Source: Propionibacteriaceae bacterium
GTDB lineage: Bacteria > Actinomycetota > Actinomycetes > Propionibacteriales > Propionibacteriaceae
DNA: 64,000 nt
NCBI GenBank assembly: GCA_031262485.1
Contig: JAISHO010000019.1
Span: 1-64,000 of the forward strand
Direction of reading: 5' to 3'
The notes beneath the pieces were generated by a model, which was given only the letters and a program-made list of their open reading frames with translations, was not told the origin of the DNA and did not search any database. The position numbers were made by a program, and so were the translations under genes. Shown here in pieces: positions 40,584 to 42,493 of this stretch (its first letter is position 1; each line of letters begins with the position of its first letter).

Positions 40584-41648
40584 ATGGATGAATTGATGTC
40601 TGAACCCGCTCTCGCGTCGCACGTCGAAAAGTTGTTTGACCAAGCATCTCTGCTCATTGAGCAGGGACGTGCCGAAGCCGCGATCAAAGTCAACTCTGTG
40701 TTGACTATGACACATTGGTATATTGGCAAACTCATTGCTGATGATTTTCTTGACGAAAACCGCGCTGACTACGGAAAACAGATTGTCGCGACACTGTCGC
40801 GACAATTGGTCGCCCGCTACGGCCGTGGTTTCGAGGAGAAGACGCTGCGTCGAATGGTCCAATTTTTCGAAGAGTTTCCCGACGAGCAGATTGTCGCGAC
40901 AGTGTCGCGACAATTGACCTGGAGCCACATCGTCGAGATTCTCCCCGTGAGAACCCCAGAGGCACGGATGTTCTACGCTCGACAGGTCGGGGATCACCAC
41001 CTCAGCGTCCGAGAGCTCCGGAAGATCATTGCCAGGAAAGCCTTCGAACGGCAAGAGATAGCCAACTCCCAAGTGGCCGACGGTTCAGCCGTGCCACTCG
41101 ACACGTTCCGCGATCCATTCCTCCTTGATTTTCTCCGCCTCCACGACTCCTACCAAGAACGCGACTTAGAGTCGGCGATCATTCGAGAACTCGAATCTTT
41201 CCTGCTTGAAGCGGGCAATGGGTGGACCTTTGTCGACCGTCAAAAGCGAATCAGCATCGACACCGAGGATTTCTACCTCGACCTTCTCTTCTACTCCCGG
41301 CCGCTACGCCGCCTCGTCGCCGTTGAACTGAAAATCGGCAAGTTCAAAGCCGCCTACGAGGGGCAGATGAAGCTCTACCTCAAATGGCTCGATCGCTATG
41401 AACGCCAGCCCAGCGAAGAGGCGCCCATCGGACTCATCCTCTGCACCGAGGCCAGCCGCGAGCAGATCGAACTGCTCGAGATGCACAAGGACGGCATCGT
41501 CGTCGCCGAGTACTGGACGGATCTCCCACCGAAGAGGGAACTCGAGCAACGGCTCCAGACGATTCTTCGCGAGGCCAAGGAACGCCTCGCCCGCCGGGGC
41601 GACACCCCGCTCTCCATCACCGCCGAGACCGAGGAGGACGACGGATGA
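40584..41648 (+). CDS. DUF1016/YhcG-family PD-(D/E)XK nuclease domain protein
   Basis: YGKQIVATLSRQLVARYGRGF, LSRQL/WSHI repeat, DLLFYSRPLRRLVAVELKIGKFKAAYEGQM. Confidence 0.93.
   Translation: MDELMSEPALASHVEKLFDQASLLIEQGRAEAAIKVNSVLTMTHWYIGKLIADDFLDENRADYGKQIVATLSRQLVARYGRGFEEKTLRRMVQFFEEFPDEQIVATVSRQLTWSHIVEILPVRTPEARMFYARQVGDHHLSVRELRKIIARKAFERQEIANSQVADGSAVPLDTFRDPFLLDFLRLHDSYQERDLESAIIRELESFLLEAGNGWTFVDRQKRISIDTEDFYLDLLFYSRPLRRLVAVELKIGKFKAAYEGQMKLYLKWLDRYERQPSEEAPIGLILCTEASREQIELLEMHKDGIVVAEYWTDLPPKRELEQRLQTILREAKERLARRGDTPLSITAETEEDDG
40782..40806. repeat. 25-bp palindrome, copy B (inside DUF1016 CDS)
   Basis: ATTGTCGCGACA-C-TGTCGCGACAAT. Confidence 0.95.
40890..40914. repeat. 25-bp palindrome, copy C (inside DUF1016 CDS)
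   Basis: ATTGTCGCGACA-G-TGTCGCGACAAT; 108 bp (36 codons) after copy B. Confidence 0.95.
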
Positions 41649-42493
41649 CCATAGAGACTGTCGAGCGGATGCTGCCGCTTTATGAGGCGAAGATGATCCA
41701 TCTCTACGATCATCGCTGGGCCACATACGAAGGAGAGAAGAACGCTCGCCTCCTCGACCCCGATGAGAAGCGGGACCCGACGTTCGCGCCCTCTCCTCGA
41801 TACTGGGTGCGAGAGGAACTGGTATCAGACCGTCTCGGGGAAACTGAGCATCACCCTCGTCTCCTTGGATGGCGCGATATTTGCCGCAACACCGATGCCC
41901 GGACAATGGTTGATGCCCAGTTCCCGATCGCAGCGGTGGGTCATACCATGCCACTAGCACTGACCAATTCTTCTTCCCTTCTTCTCCAAGCTGTTTGGTC
42001 GTCATTTGCCTTTGATTACGTCGCCAGGCAGAAGGTCGGCGGCACGCATATGACGTACGGATACCTCACTCAAATCGCCACGATCGACCCGTCGGTTTTC
42101 TCTAACCCATGCCCCTGGGCAATCGGTCAATTCGCCGATTGGATCACCTCAAGAGTCGCCACGCTGAGCTGCACCTCCTGGTCAATGGCCCCGATGGCTA
42201 AGGAGTTGACCGGCAGAGCCCAAGTCGTCGAGTGGAACCCCGACCACCGTGCCCTCATTCGCGCGGAGCTCGACGCGGCAATGTTCCACCTCTATGGCAT
42301 CGCCCGGGACGACGTCGACTACATCATGGAGACCTTCCCGATCGTCAAAGAGCATGACATCGAGGAGCACGGGGAGTATCGCACGAAGCGGCTCATCTTG
42401 GAGAACTTCGACGCGATGAACCGAGCGATCGCCGGTGAGGAGCCTTTCCGCTCCGCTGCCGAACCCTTCCTCCTGAGGAGCGCGGACCAGTGA
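41645..42493 (+). CDS. Stand-alone homologue of the MTase C-terminal (TRD-like) region
   Basis: VERMLPLYEAKMIHLYDHRWATYE...RYWV...GWRDICRNTDART...SFAFDYVARQKVG...DYIMETFPIVKEHDIEEHGEYRTKRLILE parallels residues from about 1150 onward of the upstream MTase; no MTase motif I or IV. Confidence 0.85.
   Translation: MTIETVERMLPLYEAKMIHLYDHRWATYEGEKNARLLDPDEKRDPTFAPSPRYWVREELVSDRLGETEHHPRLLGWRDICRNTDARTMVDAQFPIAAVGHTMPLALTNSSSLLLQAVWSSFAFDYVARQKVGGTHMTYGYLTQIATIDPSVFSNPCPWAIGQFADWITSRVATLSCTSWSMAPMAKELTGRAQVVEWNPDHRALIRAELDAAMFHLYGIARDDVDYIMETFPIVKEHDIEEHGEYRTKRLILENFDAMNRAIAGEEPFRSAAEPFLLRSADQ

Follow-up and report, generated by a model that had tools for sequence, protein, structure and literature searches.

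A methyltransferase with a repeat at its domain border and a free recognition domain downstream: candidate specificity switching in an actinobacterial ARMADA–McrBC operon

The window analysed here, 64,000 nt of a Propionibacteriaceae bacterium (assembly GCA_031262485.1, contig JAISHO010000019.1, positions 1 to 64,000), carries a defence operon that runs from a YprA/DruE-like helicase through a BrxHII/DrmD-like helicase, a PglX-like N6-adenine methyltransferase (MTase) and a DUF1016 protein to a stand-alone open reading frame (ORF), here called TRD2, followed by McrB and McrC. By gene content and order the operon fits an ARMADA type I system joined to McrBC. TRD2 is homologous to the C-terminal target-recognition domain (TRD) of the MTase, called TRD1, and a dinucleotide tract lies at the junction of TRD1 and the catalytic body. 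What would a free recognition domain be doing downstream of an enzyme that already has one? Is it a fossil, a stored cassette, a guide for the neighbouring effectors or a working partner of the MTase? The features on which the answer depends are these.

27973..33252, + strand: YprA/DruE-like DEAD helicase with an MZB (DUF1998-type) domain, first core gene (PADLOC DruE, E 9e-97, also DpdJ; Pfam DEAD, Helicase_C, MZB)
33343..36249, + strand: SNF2/RapA-like (BrxHII/DrmD-like) helicase (PADLOC DpdE/DrmD/BrxHII; NCBIfam DrmD, RapA)
36246..39655, + strand: catalytic body of the PglX-like N6-adenine MTase, with the NPPW motif in GNPPWD (Pfam Eco57I, MmeI_Mtase, N6_Mtase)
39656..39677, + strand: (AG)11 dinucleotide tract at the body/TRD1 junction, seen in the sequence and in frame (ON) in the assembly
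39690..40457, + strand: TRD1, the C-terminal TRD fused to the MTase when in frame (46% identical to TRD2; in the TRD1 clade of the tree)
39699..39704, + strand: ATGATG at the TRD1 start; one stop of the out-of-frame (OFF) readings, TGA at 39700-39702, overlaps it, and the other lies at 39713-39715
40584..41648, + strand: DUF1016/YhcG protein of the PDDEXK-nuclease family, between TRD1 and TRD2 (Pfam YhcG_C, DUF1016_N)
41645..42493, + strand: TRD2, stand-alone TRD of 282 aa (homology to the MTase C-terminus; AlphaFold2 model; intact homologues in related operons)
42490..44304, + strand: McrB-like AAA GTPase with an Mrr_N domain (Pfam AAA_5, Mrr_N; NCBIfam McrB)
44301..45527, + strand: McrC (Pfam McrBC PF10117, E 1e-48)

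The first-pass annotation of this DNA had described TRD2 as running parallel to the MTase C-terminus, with conserved ends and a divergent middle, and this description holds. By BLASTP, TRD2 matches MTase residues 1149-1398 with 127 of 278 positions identical (213 bits, E 2e-66), and amino acid identity is 84% over the first 25 aligned codons and 72% in the last two segments of the profile, with 32-52% in the middle. No Pfam or NCBIfam domain was found in TRD2; it lacks catalytic motifs, and its sole match is the C-terminal part of the MTase. Its AlphaFold2 model is confident (pLDDT 93.4, pTM 0.91, from 58 aligned sequences). TRD2 overlaps both neighbours by 4 nt, with the DUF1016 stop at 41648 and the McrB start, a GTG, at 42490; the same annotation had noticed these overlaps and judged the ORF maintained rather than decayed. 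Relatives, collected by one scan of genome contigs (80 loci) and by whole-genome searches of relatives, class, order, family and two other orders, agree with that judgement. TRD2, 252-296 aa long, is intact in all 21 loci examined. In each of the 20 tandem loci, meaning those with a second TRD gene downstream of the MTase and a readable body/TRD junction, it starts at ATGA or GTGA with the same 4-nt overlap as in the window. The pairwise ratio of nonsynonymous to synonymous divergence (dN/dS) is about 0.15 for loci L164 and L168 (dS 0.55); more diverged pairs, whose dS is large and rough, give 0.04-0.15. TRD2 is, to judge from these comparisons, maintained under purifying selection; the lack of conservation and the dN/dS near 1 that the annotation had named as refuting its reading were not found, and the ORF recurs in about 20 other loci. 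The start MTxTVERMLPLYEAK is conserved in many database proteins, and a protein search restricted to similar length returned 2646 homologues, most of them unnamed, some of which will be fragments at contig ends. Propioniciclava coleopterorum (L160, a single contig) has both an out-of-frame junction tract and a broken TRD1, and its TRD2 is still intact.

Is TRD2 then a copy of TRD1? The annotation had called it a duplicate, which is mistaken as to descent. In a tree of 136 TRD-type domains, the window TRD1 lies in a strongly supported TRD1 clade (15 of the 20 TRD1s fall in one clade with strong support), and the window TRD2 lies elsewhere, nearest to the first-slot domain of a Rhodococcus locus (L013_1). 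TRD2s are diverse and not sister to the TRD1 of their own locus. One TRD type occurs as a fused domain in Mycolicibacter arupensis and has close kin that stand alone in Rhodococcus and Gordonia, and the tree holds another slot exchange, in which L014_1 groups with L024_2. As TRD kin are found in both fused and free slots, the stand-alone proteins are taken to be real TRDs that have been exchanged between slots. On this phylogeny TRD2 appears to behave as an exchangeable cassette, not as a copy of TRD1. Recent duplication of, or gene conversion between, the two domains is ruled out by the tree and the identity profile; conversion tracts were looked for by alignment, as the annotation had advised, and none is visible, since the longest exact word common to both is 21 nt. 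A mosaic of the window TRD2 with the TRD2 of L165, a locus of the same genus, was also considered and rejected: identity is higher at the ends, with no clear breakpoint.

That the C-terminal region of the MTase is itself a TRD was approached through structure prediction, always of single chains. With MTase residues 419-1403 modelled as a fused protein, Foldseek returned PglX/BrxX, M.BseCI, CamA, M.TaqI and BpuSI as matches. The quality of this 985-residue model is only moderate (pLDDT 71), and therefore no claims about interfaces are drawn from it. A sequence-profile search with the isolated TRD gave no match. The region follows the NPPW body, and this location, together with the fold of the fused model, would make it a TRD of the gamma-class N6-MTase type.

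The 20 tandem loci were compared with single-TRD loci, 96 in the main comparison and about 30 further ones, or about 126 in all. Two more loci, L165 and L213 (the latter from another family), have a stand-alone TRD with the junction off the contig and bring the stand-alone-TRD loci to 22; both share the order DUF1016-TRD2-McrB-McrC of the window, so the DUF1016-TRD-McrB arrangement that the annotation had proposed seeking in other genomes does exist there. The two other orders sampled held no new complete tandem locus and yielded further single controls and L213. L007 and L159 are the same locus, as are L008 and L161, and each was counted once; L067, L076 and L078 were discarded as artefacts, caused by an insertion that splits one TRD or by a second MTase. 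In many of the single-TRD controls the downstream sequence covers only about 1.5 kb, and a more distant TRD2 could escape; none of them has a junction repeat.

Every one of the 20 tandem loci has a simple repeat precisely at the border of body and TRD1. It is G8-13 in 13 of them, G7 in one (L169), C11 in two, and (AG)11 (window), (GA)12, (CA)12 and (ACAG)23 (genome G590) in one each. Single-TRD loci have no such repeat, neither the 96 nor the 30 or so further ones. A loose threshold counted two of the 96 (L035/L099, identical rows), and their G7 was rejected as a junction repeat because it sits about 75 nt upstream of the junction; even with both included, Fisher p is 1.6e-20. A scan of 289,341 bp of tandem-locus DNA found 19 long repeats, every one of them at the junction, and the window (AG)11, known from one assembly and one allele, is the sole repeat of its class within 22 kb around the operon. 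The linker peptides encoded by these repeats are unrelated (GGG, PPP, ERERER, HTHT, TDRQ), and with differing units and unrelated peptides at one site, selection seems to act on the repeat and not on the peptide. The MTase-body tree implies 7 changes of the tandem state, of which strong branches force at least 5; the repeat also changes 7 times on the best tree, and the type of repeat at least 6 times. Repeat and tandem state change together in 5 of 5 supported independent pairs (sign test p 0.0625).

Do these tracts slip? The tract is in frame in nine of the 20 tandem loci and out of frame in 11, L167 among them; of the 96 single-TRD loci one is out of frame, and it is a damaged locus. Out-of-frame translation mostly ends 0-17 codons past the tract, and the stop is often only a few bases away from where TRD1 has its start codon; longer tails are encoded in one frame each of L013, L024, L160 and L167. 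In about 1.6 kb spanning the junction, L008, from a metagenome-assembled genome (MAG), and L163, from the single-contig genome G604, differ in tract length alone, with G12 (OFF) in the former and G10 (ON) in the latter, and are otherwise 100% identical; their identity drops to 51-72% just past TRD1 because their TRD2s differ. This length difference between related loci, together with the long repeats in the coding region, marks MTase genes of these tandem loci as phase-variable by simple repeat. Two loci in one genome, L157 and L158, are in opposite states (G9 ON, G8 OFF), and the six single-contig genomes with tandem loci (G463, G516, G561, G590, G604, G617) divide into three ON and three OFF.

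How might the pieces work together? The explanation that we regard as probable, from sequence comparison, is that slippage detaches TRD1 and that the TRD-less body then recruits the stand-alone TRD2 in trans, which would change specificity rather than only switch it off. With the tract in frame, the MTase would be made with TRD1 fused and would recognise a first motif. Once the tract has slipped, translation would stop within a few codons and leave an intact catalytic body without a TRD; this truncated body would bind TRD2 in trans and recognise a second motif. Re-initiation at ATGATG might make TRD1 separately in the OFF state, in which case free TRD1 and free TRD2 would be present together. 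Direct observations are the homology, the position of the repeat, the frame states, one pair of otherwise identical loci with tracts of unequal length, the co-occurrence of repeat and free TRD and the purifying selection on TRD2; that body and TRD2 bind, that a second motif results and that defence is affected we infer from them. Action in trans with a phase-OFF MTase to give a second specificity was among the suggestions of the first-pass annotation, and its comparative side has gained strong support (repeat with stand-alone TRD in 20/20 loci and in 0 of about 126 controls, OFF states practically only in the former, TRD2 intact), with binding and motif still at the level of prediction.

Several points weigh against recruitment of TRD2 by the truncated body. 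The evidence for trans-binding consists of homology and comparative genetics. Tandem loci cluster in Propionibacteriaceae and Mycobacteriales, which leaves only 5 supported independent contrasts (p 0.0625), and the raw Fisher value therefore overstates independence. Some OFF calls were made on MAGs, and homopolymer errors there could affect individual loci. In G561, L166 has a body frameshift without a repeat near NPPW (L166:4600-4620, reverse-complemented coordinates), and that locus may be inactive or the assembly in error. Against the PDB, the isolated TRD model matched M.TaqI alone, and weakly (E 0.44). Lastly, TRD2 is tightly linked to McrBC, which accompanies 17 of the 17 tandem loci with at least 4 kb of downstream DNA, compared with 13 of 51 single-TRD loci.

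The alternative that survives best, and which is nonetheless unlikely, is that TRD2 serves the MTase in every phase, as a second subunit or in a mixed dimer, and that slippage only removes TRD1, so that the ON state would have two specificities and the OFF state one. The operon is the same in both phases, no sequence feature limits TRD2 to the OFF state, and Type I enzymes are known to exchange S-type subunits among complexes (PMC3936762). However, the ON body has its own covalent TRD in the same position, and TRD2 would need to displace it. This alternative differs from recruitment by the truncated body in degree. Storage is a less plausible role still, and we consider it improbable: TRD2 would be unused as a protein and would recombine into the fused slot through its conserved ends, the repeat being an independent ON/OFF switch. 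TRDs have indeed moved between slots (the window TRD2 with L013_1; L014_1 with L024_2), and the identity of L008 and L163 changes sharply at the TRD1/TRD2 border, so on an evolutionary scale the spare cassette proposed in the annotation has some substance. Yet TRD2 keeps its own start and its 4-nt overlap with the preceding gene (20/20) and is under purifying selection, the limit of 21 nt on words in common leaves no sign of a local conversion tract, and storage would give no reason to expect either the 20/20 association with the repeat or the placement of the repeat exactly at the domain border, and leaves both unexplained.

A role of TRD2 apart from the MTase, in directing McrBC or DUF1016 as effector to a target sequence, is very improbable. 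For McrBC the case draws on the 4-nt overlap with McrB in the window and on the linkage just given, and it is weak: the 13 single-TRD ARMADA loci with McrBC lack TRD2, so McrBC does not need it, most tandem loci have TRD2 directly after TRD1, and other genes may separate it from McrB. For DUF1016 it is disfavoured, since this gene is present at only 3 of the 22 stand-alone-TRD loci, a distribution that rules it out as an essential partner; TRD2 tracks the junction repeat instead. A fossil of a lost second MTase, which the missing catalytic motifs might suggest, can practically be dismissed in view of the 21/21 intact ORFs, the dN/dS well below 1, the conserved start and the thousands of homologues of similar length.

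As to the operon itself, cassettes adjoining McrBC were first described as DISARM-like (PMC11090510), and the ARMADA type I gene set and order were given by Bell et al. 2025 (PMC12458937); the present operon resembles both in having the core genes in the same order and in its association with McrBC. It opens with a YprA-like helicase gene (27973-33252), as in ARMADA type I. In ARMADA type I the YprA protein bears a Vsr-type nuclease at its C-terminus; Pfam at E 0.1 found no nuclease domain in the protein of the window, whose C-terminal 150 residues are covered by no assignment. ARMADA type II, with a GajB-like helicase bearing a RelE-like domain after the core, is ruled out, as the core is followed here by DUF1016, TRD2, McrB and McrC. 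DISARM class 1 (drmD, drmMI, drmA, drmB) was also rejected: DrmD- and DrmMI-like matches exist, but DrmD scores 317 bits, below the NCBIfam cut-off of 610, a DrmB match is absent and the large helicase is of the DruE/YprA type. Phase variation, TRDs, frameshifts and stand-alone recognition genes go unmentioned in the main text of the ARMADA paper (PMC12458937). Immediately upstream of the core lie a Fic/DOC-family gene and an AAA_16 ATPase gene (24471-27042).

Species differ in the accessory ORFs that separate TRD1 from TRD2 or TRD2 from McrBC (L162:6599-7141, L169:7449-8183, L014:11726-13438, L164:7865-10904), which suggests that the region around TRD2 is an insertion hot spot for small accessory genes, like the DUF1016 gene of the window. 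In G017, a genome of the same genus, a DUF1016 gene is preceded by a TRD 3'-end remnant with no MTase or McrBC nearby (L171:6435-7668), and the arrangement appears to be what is left of an ARMADA locus that has been lost. A near-perfect palindrome, TTGTCGCGACA(C/G)TGTCGCGACAA, has three copies in the 2.84-Mb assembly, all in the defence island of the window (25664-25686, 40783-40805, 40891-40913; expected number by shuffling 0). The first copy is just 3' of the Fic-family gene (24471-25646) and the other two are inside the DUF1016 gene, 108 bp apart; the same pair is also found within the DUF1016 gene of G017 (L171; 73% amino acid identity).

Where is there a precedent for such a switch? Several known systems lend the mechanism plausibility. 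The nearest is the frameshift-mediated specificity switching of the Helicobacter pylori Type IIG enzymes JHP1272 (Hpy99XIV) and HP1353-HP1354 (HpyAXVI) (Krebes et al., PMC3936762), where homopolymer slippage alters the TRD-like element used by an N6-MTase, and hence the motif. There, however, the second TRD-like domain lies downstream in the same gene and is gained by restoring the frame, whereas in the present loci a separate, overlapping gene encodes the second TRD, the first TRD is lost by slippage, and the whole belongs to a multi-gene ARMADA/McrBC operon. A specificity switch would leave new sites unmodified on the host chromosome, a problem raised for H. pylori that ARMADA would also have to avoid. 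Type IIB enzymes such as BsaXI (PMC11997821) and BcgI resemble the arrangement proposed here in that a TRD-bearing subunit acts in trans with an MTase body related in sequence (RM.BsaXI is a profile match), but the S subunit of BsaXI has two TRDs and no fused alternative, and slippage does not choose between fused and free. Type I systems with alternative or shuffled hsdS (PMC7394358; examples in PMC3936762) likewise have one MTase, two alternative recognition subunits and a population of specificities; their switching relies on recombination or on the use of separate S proteins and does not involve the detachment of a fused TRD. Homopolymer phase variation of brxX/pglX in BREX (PMC6326788) also places slippage in a PglX-type MTase of a defence operon, but it is treated there as ON/OFF of defence, and a stand-alone TRD is not described in that source.

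A broader supposition, held with somewhat less confidence than the recruitment of TRD2 itself and still favoured, is that McrBC-linked actinobacterial ARMADA carries a dedicated and repeatedly re-evolved slippage device, which would choose between a fused and a free, swappable recognition subunit and would give a clonal population two self-marks and two target motifs; the OFF state may be mixed, with both TRDs free. If this is true, "phase OFF" MTases would not be off, and what annotations record as a frameshifted locus or a "hypothetical protein" would be a functional alternative that reads another motif. These operons would then be a model of a defence system that alternates its self/non-self mark within a clone, and a phage modified in one sub-population would still be foreign to the other. 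The widespread unnamed family to which TRD2 belongs, with its thousands of database homologues, would be one of exchangeable recognition subunits.
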